In this document: positions 25,511 to 32,962 of the stretch, piece after piece
How positions within the stretch are numbered: the stretch's first letter is position 1
How the letters are laid out: each line of letters starts with the position of its first letter
Translations under genes and position numbers: made by a program
The notes under the pieces: model-generated
What the model was told of the DNA's origin: nothing
Database searches by the model: none
Seen by the model: the letters and a program-made list of their open reading frames with translations, nothing else
NCBI RefSeq assembly: GCF_001485535.1
Contig: NZ_BCMZ01000001.1
Location: 558,001 to 622,000 of the forward strand
DNA: 64,000 nt
Reading direction: 5' to 3'
Origin: Halobacterium sp. CBA1132
GTDB taxonomy: Archaea > Halobacteriota > Halobacteria > Halobacteriales > Halobacteriaceae

Positions 25511-27966
25511 CGCCGAGAACCCTCCTCGTCGCCGCACTCGTGGTGCTCGCTGCGGCCACCGCCGGGGTCGCCGCTGGTGCCGCCGGGCCGGCGACCGCCG
25601 CGGAGACAGGGCCGACGTACGTCGACGGTGACGTGACCGAGAACACGACGTGGACCGCCGAGAACGGCCCGTACTACGTGGGCCGCGACCTGACCGTCGC
25701 CGGGGACGCGACGCTCACTGTCGAACCCGGTACGCGAGTCAACGTCGGCGAGGAAGTCACGATAACCGTCCGGGGGAGCCTCGTGGCGGCCGGAACCGGA
25801 CTCGACCCGATTCAGTTCACGACCGCCGACCCATCCTCGGGCCCGGGGACGTGGCAGACCATCGAGTACGCCGGCGACGGCGACTCCACGCTCCGGTTGG
25901 AACACACCATCCTCGAACACGCCACGACCGCGGTGACGGCGACGTCGAGCGCGGGGTCGATTCGCGTCGCCGACTCGACGGTCCGCGAGCACGTCCGCGA
26001 CGGTCTCGCCGTCACGGCCCGAGAGGGAGCGCCGTCGATTCGGATTACGGACTCGCGGTTCGCCGACGTCGGCCGCGCGGGCGTCACCGCCGCGGTTCCC
26101 GAGACCGTGCCGTACGTGGATGCCGTGCGCGACCTCCGGGTCTCCGGGACGACGTTCGCGAACACCGGCACGAACGGCGTTCGCGTGCGAGCGAGAGCGA
26201 TTTCGGACGTCAAACTGACCGACGTCACCGTCGCCGGCGTCTCGGGCACCGGCGTTGCCTTCGAGACCGAGTCGACGGACGCGCGCCCGAAGGCGACGAA
26301 CGACCACACCGTCGAGGACGTGACGCTCCGCCGCGTCGCCGTCGAGAACGTCGGCGGCAACGGCGTCGTGTTCCAGGGCGGCGCGCTCGAAGACGTACTC
26401 GTCTCGGAGAGCGAGGTCCGGGCCGCGTCCGGGAGCGGCGTTCGTGTGCACGGGGCGACCGACGCCGACCGCGTGCGCTTCGCCCGCAACACCGTCGTCG
26501 ACTCCCGGGACGGACTGCGCGTCTCGCTCCGTCGAACGTCCGGGAGCATCCAGCACGTCTCGCTCGCCGTCCAGCACAACGAGTTCTCGCGCAACGACCA
26601 GTACGGTATCGACGCCAGCGCCGAGTACGTCTTCGTCGACGCCTTCGACGTGCGGAACAACACGCTCTCCGGGAACGGCGCCGGCGGCGCGAGGTTCGGC
26701 ACCCAGCAGGTCGACAACACGGTGTTCGCGGACAACGTCGTGCGCGAGAACGACGGCCCCGGTGTCGCCGTCTCCGCGGTCCGGGTGCGCGGCGTGACTG
26801 TTCTCCGGAACCGCCTCGTCGACAACGCCGGCGACGGGCTCTCTGTCGACGCTCACGACCTGCTCGGCGGCGTGACTGTCGGCTTCAACGACGCGCTCGA
26901 CAACGGCGAGTTCGGCGTCGATGTCGCAGGCCAGCGCGCGGGCACCACCACCGTCGTCCACAACAATACGATTGCGGCGAACGCCAACGGCGTGCGCGTC
27001 GCCGGCCCGACACCCACGCGGCTGGCGAACAACTCCGTGGTGCTGAACACGGCCGACCGGGAGCGCGCGGACGGCGGCCGCGACGCCGCCGCAGCGACCG
27101 GCGTCGTCGTCGAGAACGCCCCGAACGTCGAACTCGGCCACAACGACATCTACGGCCACATCGTCGGACTACGGAGCGCGCTCGACACCGGCGAAGTCGT
27201 CGTCGCCGAACACAACTACTGGGGCGCCCCCTCGGGCCCGTACCACGAGACGCTCAACCCCGGTGGCGCCGGCGACGCGGTCGTCACCGACGGCGGGAAG
27301 GCCGACCCCGTCCCGTTCGCCAGCGAGCCGTTCGGCCCGCGCTACGAGCGCCCGACCGCGGCGCTCGTCGCCAACGAGACGACCGTTCGAGTCGGCGACC
27401 CCGTCGAACTCGCGGGCCGCCAATCCACCGACGACGGCGACATCGAAGTCTACGAGTTCACCGTCGCCGGCGAGCGCCACGTCGGCTCCTCGCCGACGTA
27501 CGTGACCAGATTCGACGAACCTGGTACGTACGCGGTCTCGCTTGCCGTCGAGGACGAACTCGGTGTCCAGAGTCTCAACGACGCGACCGTGAACGTCACC
27601 GTCGAAGCCGCCGCCCAGCCCACACACACGACGACTGCGACCACGACCGCGACTACCGCCGCGCCCGAACCCGGCGACGGGCGCGACGACTCGCTGCTGG
27701 CGAGTCTGTTCTCGCTGTGGGGTGGCCTCGGCGCGCTGATTTACCTACTGGCGCTGGCGCTCGGCGCGTACGGCACGTGGCTGTCCATCCGCGGTAACGA
27801 CCCGCCGGTCGCCGGAACGACGATTCACGCGCTCGCCGCAGTCGGCGTGCTCACGTGGGCCGTCGCCGGCTTCCTCGGTGACGGCGCGCTGCTTACGTTC
27901 GCTGCCGGCGGCGCCGTCGCGTGGGGCGCCGCGACTGGGGTTGTGCTCGCGCTCGCTACAAGATGA
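25507..27966 (+). CDS. Secreted right-handed beta-helix repeat protein with PKD-like domain and C-terminal membrane helices
   Basis: 819 aa. Signal peptide ([20 protein letters not shown]), then about 550 residues of parallel beta-helix repeats recognisable by regularly spaced N.T, NNT and G.G.V turns (e.g. [39 protein letters not shown]), ending with the motif [19 protein letters not shown] common to NosD/periplasmic beta-helix proteins. A PKD-like domain follows ([36 protein letters not shown]), then a Thr-rich linker and about four C-terminal membrane helices. Role: surface polysaccharide binding or cleavage is possible but no catalytic residues were assigned. Confidence 0.85.
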
Positions 27967-27996
27967 GTTAGAGGACGCGTAGCGCGCTCGTCCCTC

Positions 27997-28311
27997 TCAG
28001 AGGTTCGTCTCGATGTCCACGATAGTCTTGGCCGTCTCGAAGATGCCGTCCGCGGCCAAGAACTCCTCCACGGAGTCGAAGTCCGCGGGCTCGGTCGGAA
28101 TCTGGAGTTCCAACTCCTCGTCGTCGAGGCCGCCCGTGATTCGAGCCAGCGACTGCGTTCCGCCCGCCTGCACGTGAATCACCGCGTTCACCACCTCGTC
28201 CTCGACCTGTACGTGTTGAATCTCCAGCGGACCGTCCTGCCCCCCATCCGCGTAGTGCAGTACCGCCGGGACGGCGTCCATCTGGACCAATTTCGTGCCG
28301 AGTGTCGCCAT
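27997..28311 (-). CDS. Conserved acidic hypothetical protein
   Basis: 104 aa, cytosolic, no membrane segment, starting MATLGTKLVQMDAVPAVLHY. It alternates short beta-like strands (VVNAVIHVQ, ELELQIP) with acidic loops and ends FETAKTIVDIETNL. I do not recognise a family. It is the last ordinary gene before the integration repeat at 28412, which marks the left edge of the island. Confidence 0.7.
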   Translation of the reverse strand: MATLGTKLVQMDAVPAVLHYADGGQDGPLEIQHVQVEDEVVNAVIHVQAGGTQSLARITGGLDDEELELQIPTEPADFDSVEEFLAADGIFETAKTIVDIETNL

Positions 28312-28411
28312 ACTGGCACACGCGCCGTACGGCCGGAAAAACCGCGCGACTCGCAAGTGCGTCCCTTCGGCTGTGGCGGTCTCCCTGGTCAAGCTCTCGT
28401 GTCGTTCGCCG

Positions 28412-28433
28412 GCAAAATGATGGGCGCTACAGG
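28412..28433 (-). repeat. Degenerate att-like repeat of the tRNA-Arg 3' end (distal copy)
   Basis: Twenty of 22 positions match 31943-31964, the segment made of the last 12 bases of the tRNA-Arg(TCG) gene plus 10 flanking bases, in the same orientation. The two mismatches are at the eighth and eighteenth positions. Such a copy is what an integrase leaves at the far end of an element inserted at a tRNA 3' end. Confidence 0.65.
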
Positions 28434-28471
28434 TGTCTCGCGGCAGGGTACCTTTCACCCCGACGGTTCTA

Positions 28472-28759
28472 TCACTCGTAATCAGTTCTTGTTCGTCGGT
28501 CGTGTCGCTGAGTGTATCGATTGTCGTGGTGTCTATCGATTGATTTTGCACCAGCGGCGTTAGGCACGGCGGCGCTTCGAAGCGCGGTCGTGCGTGGCTG
28601 GACGGCGGCCTCTCGACCGACATTCTCGAGGACACCGACGATGACTGATTGGTTCTGATGCTTGCTCCCTGCGAACGGAAACGAACTTGGCCCGTAGGTC
28701 TGCACGTCCTCGAACCCGAACTGCGGGAAGTATCTGCTGACCGAGATTTTCGAATACAA
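28472..28759 (-). CDS. Possible degenerate ORF downstream of the restriction endonuclease
   Basis: A 95-codon frame starting 22 bases after the endonuclease stop on the same strand. The first 50 residues look protein-like (KISVSRYFPQFGFEDVQTYG, PFAGSKHQNQSVIVGVLENV), the rest is low-quality basic sequence. It may be a remnant of a gene truncated at the island boundary. No function can be given. Confidence 0.25.
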   Translation of the reverse strand: MYSKISVSRYFPQFGFEDVQTYGPSSFPFAGSKHQNQSVIVGVLENVGREAAVQPRTTALRSAAVPNAAGAKSIDRHHDNRYTQRHDRRTRTDYE

Positions 28760-28780
28760 TCGGACAGAGCAGCCACCGAG

Positions 28781-29902
28781 CTAACTCTCTAAATGCGCGA
28801 GCGCGGTGTTCTCGGGGTCGACTTGCTCGATGAATCGAAGGATACGCTGAACGGCTTTCGGATTCTCCTCGATGTGGTAGAAGTAGTGGACCATGCCCTG
28901 GACCGCGCGGTCCTGCTGGTGGTAGTCCCACGACGCAATCTCCTGTTCGAGGTCCTCGTCCGTGATTACGGTGACGCCAGCGTCCTCGAGTACGTCGGTG
29001 GCGTTATCCGAGACTGACCGGCAGAGGGCGATGACCATCGCCGTGGTGTCCTCGGCCAGCTTCATCATCTCACCGAGCTCCCCTCGCACGTTCCCCATCG
29101 TGATGTCGCGGTCTTTCGCTTCGACGGAGAGCATCAGGTCCGGGCCGACGTAGCCATCGATGTCCCCGTACCGATTCTGCCGCGAGGACCCCGTGCGCAC
29201 CTTGCTCGCAGTCAGGGACAGGTGCGTCCACTTCGCCTTCACGTACCCGTAGGCGAACGCCTGGTACGCCGCACCGCCGTTCTCGTCGGGGTGCGAGCGC
29301 TGGTAGTCCTGGAGGATGTCGTAGAAGGGACTGGAGAACGGGGGCTCCCGCGTCGGGAGACTTTGGCTGTCGAGACGGTCGAGACCGACATCGAAGAGGC
29401 GCTGAGCCGCCTCGTATCGACCCGTTCGAGACAGTTGGTTCGCCAGTTCGAACATGTCCTCGTACTCGTCCCACTTGCCGGTGTGGTGGCCGGGCGAACT
29501 CGGGAAGTTCGTTCGGTTCAGCGCGTCGCGGAAGACCGTGATGACATCGTTCTGGACGGGGCGAATCCCGTACTTGTTCCCGTCGAGGAGGAACGTGAGC
29601 GTGTCCGTGTCGCGTTCGTCGTACCGGCTTCGAACGTCGTCGGCAGTCAGGCTCGAGTCGAAGCCGTTCAGCCAGTCGTCGACCTGCGAGAGCTGCTCGG
29701 CGACCATGAGGAAGTCGATGGCGAGTCCGAGCGTCCCCTTCGAAGACGCGAAGTAGTCCTCCGCGCGGTTCACGAGCGCCTCGATTGTCTCTTTCTCCTC
29801 ATTAGACAGCGTCGACGGGTCGTGCTGGTACTCGGTCCGAAAGTACTCTCGGAGGAATTCTTCGATTGCCTCGTCTTCCTCGTCGGTCCGGCCGGCAGTC
29901 AC
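28781..29902 (-). CDS. Probable type II restriction endonuclease (PD-(D/E)XK-like)
   Basis: 373 aa, soluble. The first 200 residues are helical and acidic; the catalytic-looking core is at about residues 246-264: GDIDGYVGPDLMLSVEAKDR, i.e. an Asp followed by E-x-K in a beta strand, the pattern of PD-(D/E)XK nucleases. It is encoded back-to-back with a cytosine-5 methyltransferase, with a small winged-helix gene overlapping its start, so an endonuclease role is strongly suggested by context. The recognition site cannot be read from the sequence; a relation to SacI-type enzymes is only a suspicion. Confidence 0.75.
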   Translation of the reverse strand: MTAGRTDEEDEAIEEFLREYFRTEYQHDPSTLSNEEKETIEALVNRAEDYFASSKGTLGLAIDFLMVAEQLSQVDDWLNGFDSSLTADDVRSRYDERDTDTLTFLLDGNKYGIRPVQNDVITVFRDALNRTNFPSSPGHHTGKWDEYEDMFELANQLSRTGRYEAAQRLFDVGLDRLDSQSLPTREPPFSSPFYDILQDYQRSHPDENGGAAYQAFAYGYVKAKWTHLSLTASKVRTGSSRQNRYGDIDGYVGPDLMLSVEAKDRDITMGNVRGELGEMMKLAEDTTAMVIALCRSVSDNATDVLEDAGVTVITDEDLEQEIASWDYHQQDRAVQGMVHYFYHIEENPKAVQRILRFIEQVDPENTALAHLES

Positions 29903-30201
29903 TTCGAATCACCGTCGTTCAGATCCTCGACGACGTTCGCGACCTCCTCGCCGGTCTCGGTGAGCGAATACAGTTTTGTCCGGGACTCCGCGCTGTGGGA
30001 CTGGACGAGGTCGCGTTCGCGGAGTTCGGTGAGAGCACGGCTGACGTGGGAGCGAGCGAGGTTACGTACGTCTGCGATGGAACTCGGATTAGTCGGCTTT
30101 CCCGCCAACTCCGCGACGACCGCTTGTCGATACTTCGAACCGAGGACGTAGGCTGCGTGGTCCAACTCTGATTCGTCGTCGTGGTTTGCTGTCAACGTCA
30201 T
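29899..30201 (-). CDS. Winged-helix transcription regulator, putative R-M controller
   Basis: 100 aa. Winged-helix DNA-binding pattern: YVLGSKYRQAVVAELAGKP (helix 1), SIADVRNLARSHVSRALTEL (helix-turn-helix with recognition helix) and RTKLYSLTETGEEVANVVED (wing and last helix), as in ArsR/MarR-like archaeal regulators. It overlaps the endonuclease start by four bases and faces the methyltransferase across 122 bases, the arrangement of a controller that keeps endonuclease expression behind methylation. The ATG at 30201 is used; a GTG two codons earlier is possible. Confidence 0.8.
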   Translation of the reverse strand: MTLTANHDDESELDHAAYVLGSKYRQAVVAELAGKPTNPSSIADVRNLARSHVSRALTELRERDLVQSHSAESRTKLYSLTETGEEVANVVEDLNDGDSK

Positions 30202-30323
30202 CAGCACCGGATGCGTACCCGTTGATGCCCAAGCAATAATAGGAAATTTACCATCCGATTACCAACTTTGTAGTGTGCGAGGAGACGAATGGTTAAGTAC
30301 GAGCCAGCCAGTAATTCGCTGCA
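30202..30323. promoter_or_regulatory. Divergent promoter region of the R-M system
   Basis: AT-rich spacer between the regulator and the methyltransferase. On the plus strand GGTTAAGTAC (30291-30300) is 28 bases before the methyltransferase ATG, predicting a leaderless message. On the minus strand an AT-rich stretch around 30232-30252 (reads CCTATTATTGC) stands about 40 bases before the regulator start. A partly symmetric GGAAATTTACC lies between them and is a candidate operator. Confidence 0.45.
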
Positions 30324-31532
30324 ATGAGTGAGGACCTGACGTACGTCGACCTCTTTGCGGGTGCGGGAGGGCTCTCTGTCGGTCTCGAGAACGCAGGCTT
30401 CACGCTCAAGCACGCCGTCGAAGTCGACGAAGACGCGCGTGCCTCCTTCGCCAACAACCGGGACGGTTGGGAACCAGCGGACATCTCTGAAGACATTCGC
30501 GACATCGAACAGGAGGAAATCGCGGGGCTCGTCGGAGACGAATCTGTCGACCTCGTCGCAGGCGGTCCTCCGTGCCAGGGTTTCTCCGAAGTCGTAAGCC
30601 CGGACGGGTCCGACGAACGCAACCACCTCTTCACGAACTTCATCGAGTGGGTGAACGAACTCCGTCCACAGGCCGCGCTCTTTGAGAACGTCCGCGGGAT
30701 GCAGAACACGGCGGGTGGCAAGTTTCTCGAGGCGGTGGAGAAGTCCTTCGACAAGATGGGGTACGAGGTGACCTACCGTGTCGTCACGTCCTCCGACTTC
30801 GGCGTCCCCCAGCATCGTCGGCGTCTCGTCGTCCTCGCGTTCAAGGATGGGCAGCCGGACTATCCGCTGGAAGGATTCGACCTCGACCCGGTCGAGACTC
30901 CGGGCGTCATCGACGGTATTGGCGACCTACCCGAAGTCGGACCCGGCGAAGAGGTCGAAGAATACGACCGGGAGCCCCAGACGGTTCTCCAGCGAGACCT
31001 ACGTGGCGACAACGACCAGCTTACTTCGCACCAGGCAGCGAACCACACCGACGACATGGTCGAGATGATTTCGCACATCCCGGACGGTGGAGACCGGACC
31101 GCGATTCCGGACGAACTCCAACCGTCGTCGGGTTACCACAACTCGTACTCGCGCCTACAGTCGGACGCACCCGCGGTCGCGATTACCTCGAACATGTCGA
31201 AGCCGTCGAGCGCCCGCTGCATTCACCCGTTCCAAGACCGAGGGCTGACGCCTCGAGAAGGAGCGCGCCTCCAGACGTTCCCGGACACGTACCGTTTCGA
31301 GGGCGGGCTGGTGTCTCGCCGTCAGCAAATCGGGAATGCCGTTCCTCCTTACCTCGGTGAAGCGCTCGGTTACTACCTCAAAGAGTCTGTTTACGACGTG
31401 GAGTTCTCGGAAGCCGACCGTGAACGAATCTACACACTCCGATGTGGATCACTCACACCCGAGGAGTTCGAAGAGACGCGACCGAAACTGGAAGGTTTTG
31501 CACAGCAGGCAACGTTCGACGTAGCGGACTGA
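30324..31532 (+). CDS. DNA (cytosine-5-)-methyltransferase
   Basis: 402 aa modification enzyme with all main C5-MTase motifs in order: I YVDLFAGAGGLSVGLENAGF (SAM site), IV GGPPCQGFSEV (catalytic Cys about residue 84), VI ALFENVRGM, VIII FGVPQHRRRLVVLAF, then a variable target-recognition region of about 130 residues, IX/X around LTPREGARLQTFPDTYRFEG and QQIGNAVPPYLGEALG. It protects sites of the adjacent endonuclease by 5-methylcytosine. Start ATG 30324 is supported by the TATA-like element 28 bases upstream. Codon use is somewhat less GC-biased than neighbours, consistent with transfer. Confidence 0.95.
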   Translation: MSEDLTYVDLFAGAGGLSVGLENAGFTLKHAVEVDEDARASFANNRDGWEPADISEDIRDIEQEEIAGLVGDESVDLVAGGPPCQGFSEVVSPDGSDERNHLFTNFIEWVNELRPQAALFENVRGMQNTAGGKFLEAVEKSFDKMGYEVTYRVVTSSDFGVPQHRRRLVVLAFKDGQPDYPLEGFDLDPVETPGVIDGIGDLPEVGPGEEVEEYDREPQTVLQRDLRGDNDQLTSHQAANHTDDMVEMISHIPDGGDRTAIPDELQPSSGYHNSYSRLQSDAPAVAITSNMSKPSSARCIHPFQDRGLTPREGARLQTFPDTYRFEGGLVSRRQQIGNAVPPYLGEALGYYLKESVYDVEFSEADRERIYTLRCGSLTPEEFEETRPKLEGFAQQATFDVAD

Positions 31533-31828
31533 GAACCGGGCTGGAGTCTGGCCTTGACGCGACTCACGAGGATGCTAGCCATCTCGTCGATTAGCGGTAA
31601 GACAGACTTCGACGACGAGGGGCGTCCCGTAGGTTAGGCGCTCGAACGTCACGCCGCCCACCTCTGTGAGTTGGCTCGGCTAACGCCTTGACGGCGTGGA
31701 CCCTCGTCACGTGACGGGCTGGGATACGATTGAGATGCCGAATTGGCGAATGGTGATTCGCTCGATTTCTGGAGGAAGAAGTAGCTACGGGGAGAAATAG
31801 GGTGGGGCACAAAACGGGTGGTCGCTGT
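31533..31828. other. Non-coding right arm of the island
   Basis: About 300 bases between the methyltransferase stop and the first tRNA-end copy. No frame with sensible protein sequence or RNA gene was seen; it may be decayed integrated DNA. Confidence 0.5.
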
Positions 31829-31852
31829 ATGGGCGCTGCAGGATTGTGAACC
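31829..31852 (-). repeat. Second copy of the tRNA-Arg 3' end (proximal)
   Basis: Seventeen bases (31829-31845) are identical to 31951-31967, followed by a single-base insertion and a further match to the T-arm. Same orientation as the tRNA. It lies 122 bases to the left of the intact gene and indicates an additional insertion or excision event at this site. Confidence 0.65.
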
Positions 31853-31892
31853 GGAGCCAGACGGTCACCTCGCTTCGCTCGGCGCTGCGACT

Positions 31893-31919
31893 GACAGGGT
31901 TCAAATCCTCGGCCCAGGT
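31893..31919 (+). repeat. T-arm-like tRNA fragment in opposite orientation
   Basis: GGGTTCAAATCC on the plus strand, followed by CGGCCCA, resembles the T-loop and acceptor 3' strand of another tRNA, but the T-stem does not pair well and no 5' part is present. Probably a remnant. Confidence 0.3.
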
Positions 31920-31952
31920 TTAGCTCGCCACCTCCGTTCCTCGCAAAATCAT

Positions 31953-32026
31953 GGGCGCTGCAGGATTTGAACCCGCGGCGTCTTGGTCCGAAGCCAAGTG
32001 CTCTGTCCAAGCTGAGCTAAGCGCCC
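31953..32026 (-). tRNA. tRNA-Arg (anticodon TCG)
   Basis: Complete cloverleaf on the minus strand, 74 nt, no encoded CCA. Acceptor GGGCGCT pairs with AGCGCCC; D-stem GCTC/GAGC; anticodon stem CTTGG/CCAAG with loop CTTCGGA, giving anticodon TCG (codon CGA); T-stem GCGGG/CCTGC around TTCAAAT. No intron. Its 3' end is the target of the integrated island to the left. Confidence 0.95.
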
Positions 32027-32052
32027 GGCACGCGAACGTAGACGGAGGTCGG

Positions 32053-32059
32053 TTTTAAA
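32053..32059 (-). promoter_or_regulatory. Box A of the tRNA-Arg gene
   Basis: On the minus strand GGTTTAAAACC is centred 30 bases before the tRNA 5' end at 32026, the usual position of the archaeal TATA box for stable RNA genes. Confidence 0.55.
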
Positions 32060-32090
32060 CCCCGTGATTCGGAGCGGGCGGTATCGCCTC

Positions 32091-32097
32091 CTTTATT
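32091..32097 (+). promoter_or_regulatory. TATA box of the UbiA-family gene
   Basis: CTTTATT centred 28 bases ahead of the ATG at 32123; this fixes the start of the prenyltransferase as a leaderless message rather than the GTG upstream. Confidence 0.5.
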
Positions 32098-32122
32098 CGG
32101 GGTGGTCCGCGTAGGCGTGGGC

Positions 32123-32962
32123 ATGAGTGTGGCGGGGACGGTACGGGGGCTGGTGGAGCTCACCCGGCCGGTGAATACGGTGGCGGCGGGCGCGTTGACG
32201 TTCATCGGGGCGTTCGTCGCCGGCGGGGCGTTCGCGGAGCCGGCGGCGACGGCAGCGGCGGTGGGGGCGACGTGGTTCGCGACGGCAGCGGGGATGGCGA
32301 TAAACGACTACTTCGACCGGGACGTCGACCGCATCAACAATCCGGAGCGCGCGATTCCGCGCGGCGCCGTCTCGGAGCGCGGCGCGCTGGCGTTCAGCGT
32401 GGCGTTGTTCGCGGGCGCGGTGGTGCTCTCGGTGCTGTTGCCGCCGCTGGCGTTGGGCATCGCGGCGGTGAATCTCGCGGGGTTGGTGACGTACACGGAG
32501 TTCTTCAAGGGCTTGCCTGGCGCGGGGAACGCGCTGGTGGCGTACCTCGTGGGGAGCACGTTCCTGTTCGGTGCGGCGGCTGTCGGCGACCCGCTGGCGG
32601 GTGGCGTGCTCGCGGTGCTGGCGGCGCTGTCGACGTTCACTCGCGAGGTCATCAAGGACGTCGAAGACGTGACTGGGGACCGCGAGGAGGGGTTGCGGAC
32701 GCTCCCAATCGTCGTCGGGGAGCGGCGCGCGCTCGTCCTCGGTGCGGCACTCTTGGTCGTCGCGGTGCTGGCGAGCCCGGTGCCGTACGTGGCGGGGACG
32801 TTCGGCGTCTGGTATCTGGTCGTTGTGGTGCCGGCGGACACGGTGATGCTGGCGGCGGCGTACCGGAGCTTCGACGACCCGGAGGCGGGCCAGCAACTGC
32901 TCAAGGCGGGGACGTTCGTCGCTGCTGTGGCGTTCGTCGTCGGTCGGTTGGCCGGGCCGTGA
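32123..32962 (+). CDS. Digeranylgeranylglyceryl phosphate synthase (UbiA family)
   Basis: Membrane prenyltransferase, 279 aa, eight or nine helices. It joins the second geranylgeranyl chain to GGGP in archaeal ether-lipid synthesis. The two Asp-rich motifs are present: NDYFDRDVDRINNPERAIPRG (about residues 62-82) and KDVEDVTGDREEGLRTLPI (about 176-194). Its length and these motifs fit the archaeal DGGGP synthase branch; other UbiA proteins (menaquinone, haem O) are less likely because of the short loop and archaeal-type PRGAVS sequence. Confidence 0.85.
   Translation: MSVAGTVRGLVELTRPVNTVAAGALTFIGAFVAGGAFAEPAATAAAVGATWFATAAGMAINDYFDRDVDRINNPERAIPRGAVSERGALAFSVALFAGAVVLSVLLPPLALGIAAVNLAGLVTYTEFFKGLPGAGNALVAYLVGSTFLFGAAAVGDPLAGGVLAVLAALSTFTREVIKDVEDVTGDREEGLRTLPIVVGERRALVLGAALLVVAVLASPVPYVAGTFGVWYLVVVVPADTVMLAAAYRSFDDPEAGQQLLKAGTFVAAVAFVVGRLAGP

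Follow-up and report, generated by a model that had tools for sequence, protein, structure and literature searches.

A restriction-modification island at a haloarchaeal tRNA-Arg gene as a likely remnant of an integrated element, and a hairpin unit at tRNA 3' ends that is nearly class-wide

In the window, the whole stretch of 64,000 nucleotides of Halobacterium sp. CBA1132 DNA analyzed here, the segment 28412-31850 is very probably the remnant of an element that had integrated site-specifically at the 3' end of tRNA-Arg(TCG), with its integrase reduced to 19 codons and a restriction-modification (R-M) cassette left behind. Between this remnant and the tRNA gene lies a hairpin unit of a kind that recurs at tRNA 3' ends. 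The explanation in its entirety, an element remnant with an R-M cassette next to a class-wide tRNA-end hairpin unit, can be considered probable, if less so than its first part.

Results

Repeats of the tRNA-Arg(TCG) end

The intact tRNA-Arg(TCG) gene is found at 31952-32026 on the minus strand. The segment 28412-28433 (GCAAAATGATGGGCGCTACAGG) repeats 31943-31964 (GCAAAATCATGGGCGCTGCAGG) in the same orientation with 20 of 22 identical positions, as had been claimed in the original prediction. With the tRNA gene at these coordinates, however, the 22 bases are made up of 13 tRNA bases and 9 flanking bases and not of 12 and 10, so that the copy stood and its division had to be corrected. When up to three mismatches were allowed, the repeat pair gave the sole two matches in the window, where none was expected from 100 shuffles. 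A search of the whole 3.0-Mb genome for the joint repeat pattern at the same threshold returned those two places only, with none for the reversed control, and the repeat is thus not common elsewhere. A third copy of the tRNA-Arg end is present at 31830-31852 and is identical in 17 of 17 positions over 31829-31845. The distal att-like copy extends over 28388-28433 and consists of the core at 28412-28433 and an outer flank that resembles the 3' flank of the tRNA in the relative G002 (score 33, with 1 of 300 shuffles equally high), which is the expectation if this flank is the displaced old one. The distal edge therefore bears the direct repeat of the tRNA 3' end by which a tRNA-integrated element is recognized.

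Integrase scar and island edges

No intact integrase gene was found next to the att site in the island, in line with the original prediction. A scar of such a gene is nevertheless present at 28536-28592 on the minus strand (HDRASKRRRA*RRWCKINR). It corresponds to the last 19 codons of a tyrosine integrase, with a stop among them, and matches the integrase of G008 in 14 of 19 positions, the DNA being identical in 37 of 41 positions (E=1e-9). The scar lies 118 nt inside the distal att copy, as compared to 120 nt in G008, and has the same orientation. In G008, the same tRNA has a distal copy of its end 14.2 kb away with an intact tyrosine integrase (367-codon frame) beside it, and in G004 a second, related integrase is found together with an att-like copy near the homologue of the window gene at 27997. 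The reduction of the integrase to 19 codons agrees with a decayed element, the first of the two options considered earlier, the other being mobilization in trans. The 14-kb G008 element between the tRNA-Arg copies (L062:550-14804) itself has a provirus- or virus-related look, and three of its proteins match PHROG families of unknown function (phrog_1979, 3526 and 2231).

On the tRNA-proximal side, an arm at 31594-31850 shows an unbroken alignment with the DNA directly 3' of the tRNA-Arg of G001 that runs into the tRNA end (score 149, against a null maximum of 47). The arms of G001 and G008 also resemble each other (60 against 36). Compared directly, the window arm and G008 gave a weak match not beyond control windows, and the link to the G008 arm is therefore kept as an indirect one via G001. 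Since the DNA beyond the third copy aligns with the DNA directly behind the G001 tRNA, the proximal edge of the island is, judging from this alignment, most likely the copy at 31830-31852. Of the island limits as first drawn, the distal one was thus retained, whereas the proximal one at the tRNA-proximal repeat was not. The arm type shared by G008 and G001 also occurs in G007 and, as in G001 itself, without a detected G008-type integrase; it could therefore be old chromosomal flank.

The restriction-modification cassette

The remaining cargo is, according to the predicted gene products, an intact type II R-M cassette. It comprises a type II restriction endonuclease of 373 aa in an open frame (28781-29902, minus strand), a C5-cytosine DNA methyltransferase of 402 aa (30324-31532, plus strand) and, between these two genes, a winged-helix DNA-binding protein of 102 aa (HVO_A0261_N / HTH_27; 29899-30207, minus strand). 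The nuclease matches a PADLOC type II restriction model (E=4e-30), and its PD-(D/E)XK residues D254, E260 and K262 are invariant across 16 homologues. Its predicted structure has a mean pLDDT of 82, and the nearest solved fold is that of EcoT38I (7edb, 7e8r; E=1.2e-4), which resembles it in the PD-(D/E)XK residues but shares only 13-14% identity with it at a low TM-score of 0.24-0.31. The methyltransferase is clearly assigned as a C5-cytosine enzyme, and it is encoded together with a nuclease that has the PD-(D/E)XK residues, as in type II R-M systems. The space between the repeats had been thought to hold only R-M genes and debris; the R-M genes are there, and the winged-helix gene, the integrase scar and the third tRNA-end copy have to be added.

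The R-M genes have been acquired. In none of 58 sampled relatives (own genome apart), 12 of which belong to the same genus, was the nuclease gene detected, and the possibility that the R-M genes are backbone shared with the relatives was rejected on these grounds. Within the class, which a named homologue in Halorarius litoreus and the haloarchaeal genes present identify as Halobacteria, its distribution is patchy (22 of 391 genomes, 14 of 86 genera), and among the 22 nuclease-carrying genomes the own genome is the sole member of its family. The C5 methyltransferase adjoins the nuclease in every extended locus examined. Any tRNA was present in just 5 of 20 fetched homologous loci, which by a rough estimate is about what tRNA density would give, and an inherent link of the cassette to tRNAs is thus unsupported. 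In 7 of the 20 loci, G008-type integrases were found within the fetched neighborhood of the cassette. The acquired genes, the distal tRNA-end copy and the G008 element at the same tRNA together uphold the predicted R-M island at the 3' end of tRNA-Arg(TCG).

The locus in relatives

On its distal side the island is bordered by a conserved backbone gene at 28000-28311 on the minus strand (the gene at 27997; 104 aa, no confident family), beyond which, at about 28354, the similarity of the DNA to that of relatives ends. At the other end, the gene at 32126-32962 (plus strand), which encodes a putative UbiA-like prenyltransferase, is a conserved neighbor of tRNA-Arg(TCG), and the two stay together across the genus. 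A homologue of the 27997 gene lies at most 12 kb from tRNA-Arg(TCG) in G002, G009, G011, G012 and G003. The gap between them is 0.7 kb in G002, 0.8 kb in G009, 2.2 kb in G011 and 11.4 kb in G012, and in these four relatives the homologue is followed by a putative type IV pilin gene, so called on the basis of its sequence. A bare empty site, with the 27997 gene adjoining an intact tRNA-Arg and nothing between, had been proposed as support for the island, but none was found in the relatives compared; the shortest gaps, of exactly 717 bp (G002) and 790 bp (G009), hold the pilin gene. The island therefore did not simply insert into a site that has stayed the same in other respects. The tRNA-Arg(TCG) locus is different in nearly every species of the genus, and the site is hypervariable. 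As the pilin gene is present in four relatives and missing from the window locus, some local loss must have happened here besides the acquisition.

Two further observations were made in the surroundings. A second variable spot corresponds to window positions 27964-27997: in G002 and G011, the homologues of the gene that ends at 27966 and of the gene at 27997 are separated by an additional 2 kb or so. In G011, the tRNA-Arg site (L052:7050-8050, minus strand) holds, by eye, a PIN-domain toxin/antitoxin-like pair in place of the R-M genes.

Anatomy of the hairpin unit

The tRNA-end hairpin unit of the window has a length of 122 bp (31830-31951, minus strand) and adjoins tRNA-Arg(TCG). In the tRNA sense, the order in such units is tRNA, spacer, antisense T-loop/T-stem, inner stem, loop and tRNA 3'-end copy, with the 3' arm copying the 3' end of the own tRNA (nt ~53-73) and the 5' arm being the T-arm in antisense. 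With increasing coordinates, the window unit accordingly contains the direct tRNA 3'-end copy, which is longer by one base (31830-31852), the inner stem and loop followed by the antisense T-arm (~31901-31915), and the spacer (~31916-31951). The G001 flank meets the window sequence at 31850, so that 31851-31951 is additional; G009, G011 and G012 also have this stretch next to the tRNA, there without the R-M nuclease.

Sequence similar to the window unit adjoins other tRNA genes of the own genome. Downstream copies of their own end with a score of at least 14 were seen for 20 of the 40 tRNA genes, while the upstream controls scored 11 at most. The direct copy is specific for the tRNA it belongs to (own-tRNA match 231; highest permutation value 140), and the antisense arm fits its own T-arm (0 of 10000 permutations). 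For the acceptor part of the antisense arm, own-tRNA specificity was not significant (773 of 10000) and was rejected, leaving the T-arm part alone as significant. Single units fold into the same hairpin, and the stems pair across the own-genome set. Searching 28300-32200 with the Rfam 15 covariance models gave no match to the unit and only the tRNA itself; the unit is not recognized as a tRNA, which speaks against a tRNA pseudogene.

Some additional features of tRNA genes and their flanks were noticed, the first two by eye. In the own genome (G000), the spacers between tRNA and unit often hold an extra GC-rich palindrome (CGCGAGAGAC...GTCTCTCGCG), examples being found behind tRNA-Val(GAC) and tRNA-Val(CAC). 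The 3' flank of tRNA-Arg(CCG) at G000:C1:34576-34648 (L004, L115) resembles the tRNA-Arg(TCG) flank of G004, G005 and G006 (AACGATCC..., TTTATAAA), so that two arginine tRNAs may share a type of element end. G011 has five consecutive tRNA genes in about 530 bp (G011:C1:229003-229533), possibly a tRNA cluster of a mobile element.

Covariation and distribution of the family

A covariance model of the unit was built with a hand-given structure; automatic consensus caught only 4 pairs. It picks up units that follow tRNA genes in the same orientation. Units were detected with this model in 113 of 116 genomes of the class, covering 44 of 46 genera, with 1 to 34 per genome. In a sample of the phylum (n=148), they were present in 22 of 24 genomes of the class and in 0 of about 124 genomes outside it. 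ARAGORN placed a tRNA in the locus of 89 units. Of these units, 86 are on the strand of the tRNA and at most 400 nt 3' of it (median 58); 76 match its final 14 bases with a score of at least 11, compared to 3% for other tRNAs.

Among 105 distinct units, 97.7% of the cells were paired versus 87.4% after shuffling, and 183 double changes were counted versus 50, in an alignment made with a model of the same structure, so that the pairing counts lean towards that structure, and with related rows that are not independent. Sliding the partner by one column nonetheless made pairing collapse to 48-62%. The inner stem has a conserved T.T mismatch, present in 91 of the 105 units. The 61 G.U cells, as opposed to 14 A.C cells, favor folding of the tRNA-sense strand, and from this base-pair pattern we infer that the unit folds in that strand, more likely as RNA.

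A tRNA-end hairpin family with this anatomy almost certainly exists. Distant BLAST searches of phages and plasmids gave no match to the window unit, and the exact unit pattern was not present in viral contigs. No description of the family was found in the literature, in a search of titles and abstracts restricted to open-access papers that is weak evidence of absence; the family is apparently undescribed so far.

Presence, absence and decay of units

Units occur in tandem, and the copies decay away from the tRNA. In arrays, the tRNA-nearest copy was the better match in 17 comparisons, the worse in 1 and equal in 17. Between sister sites, entire units are present or absent, the breakpoints falling at the T-loop or the acceptor; filled and empty pairs are tRNA-Asn in G000 and G002, tRNA-Lys(TTT) in G011 and G002, and tRNA-Arg in the window and G001. 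Within the genus, the number of units ranges from 1 (G007) to 33 (G000). This picture would result equally from gain of a unit at the tRNA end or from its exact removal through recombination of the ~21-nt repeats; loss by itself, however, does not account for the arrays or for the spread between tRNA genes, for which gains are needed too.

Discussion

The island has much in common with known archaeal elements. Those integrated at tRNA genes with tyrosine recombinases are reviewed in PMC8371274, and GI3 of Haloquadratum walsbyi as well as a 6.7-kb tRNA-Thr1 remnant without an integrase are described in PMC3119063. Such elements are bordered by an intact tRNA on one side and by part of its 3' end, in copy, on the other, and their cargo may include restriction systems; the tRNA-Thr1 remnant parallels the window island also in its missing integrase. 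The window island differs in that a 19-codon scar of the integrase persists, in the hairpin unit between tRNA and arm and in that a clean empty site was not found for it. In the sequence of events that we favor, an element would have entered at the 3' end of tRNA-Arg(TCG), and its integrase would later have been deleted down to the last 19 codons with the R-M cassette remaining.

The repeat is short and has two mismatches, as a chance match at a locus without integration history might have. Its uniqueness in the genome, the zero matches expected in the window from shuffles and the position of the integrase scar at the expected distance from the att copy led us to reject this origin, which would be extraordinarily improbable. 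A more serious alternative is that the R-M genes entered the hypervariable spot by homologous recombination or transposition and that repeat and scar stem from an older, unrelated element. The lack of enrichment near tRNAs of R-M homologues elsewhere, the failure to find a clean empty site among relatives and the ~300 bp of debris on each side of the R-M genes would all be compatible with it. The R-M genes, however, lie exactly between two att copies, and G008-type integrases accompany the cassette in the homologous loci mentioned above. We consider this alternative unlikely and retain the integrated element as the source of the cassette.

As to the hairpin, the tRNA 3' end may receive the unit as a cassette, whereby the displaced old end would become the distal copy of the unit; the arguments for and against such a gain are about evenly balanced. 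The more complete description of the units, as an undescribed, nearly class-wide, non-coding structured cassette gained at tRNA 3' ends, with direct and antisense copies of the host tRNA and the newest copy next to the tRNA, is put forward tentatively, as slightly less probable than the gain alone. In the window, the unit between the tRNA and the element arm would have been inserted after the element, or the element would have used the unit copy as its attachment site. The latter order suits the idea of decoy attachment sites, in which the tRNA-end copy diverts integrating elements from the real tRNA gene. The copy indeed covers the tRNA 3' region that becomes duplicated when elements integrate; in the window, G009, G011 and G012, the unit copy marks the end of the conserved block, and in the window the G001-like arm abuts it. 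Yet the data agree just as well with a unit inserted after the element, and a decoy leaves the antisense arm, the covarying inner stem and the T.T mismatch unexplained; we regard it as improbable. Alternatively, the units may be a structured RNA of the tRNA transcript, acting in 3' processing, in termination or as a small RNA, with the antisense arm regulating the folding of the tRNA end. The nearly exclusive tRNA-sense orientation, the excess of G.U over A.C and the strong covariation speak for this; half of the own tRNA genes, however, have no unit, distal copies decay, and the range of unit numbers within the genus indicates that a unit is dispensable at any one tRNA. Such an RNA is therefore also doubtful, if a little less so than a decoy, and any particular function of the units in the cell is on the whole unlikely. 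Gain as a cassette thus remains our working description.

Some known repeats resemble the units. Integron attC sites are imperfect hairpins with a stem mismatch, conserved in structure more than in sequence, that form tandem arrays with the newest copy nearest to the anchor. The units are likewise mismatched hairpins with structure conserved above sequence, in tandem and possibly newest nearest to the anchor, a likeness that serves as a lead only. The attC boxes RYYYAAC/GTTRRRY were not found, as the unit arms read TTTGAAC and GTTCAAA and the GGTTCAAATC core misfits GTTRRRY; the unit arms moreover match the local tRNA, and there are no genes between unit copies. Repeats of the MITE/REP type are short, dispersed and palindromic, with flanking direct repeats resembling target duplications. 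The units share the shortness, dispersal and palindromic nature and were observed to have inverted arms and direct repeats of ~21 nt at their flanks, but they are confined to tRNA 3' ends, their inverted arm matches the local tRNA and their stems covary.

Taken alone, the island is nothing unusual among decayed elements at tRNA sites that carry R-M genes. If the description of the hairpin units is true, with a dozen or so of them in nearly every haloarchaeon, tRNA expression and the chromosomal sites commonly used for integration would have an unexplained element or RNA at their center; given the wide distribution of units in the class, laboratory haloarchaea amenable to genetics probably have them too.
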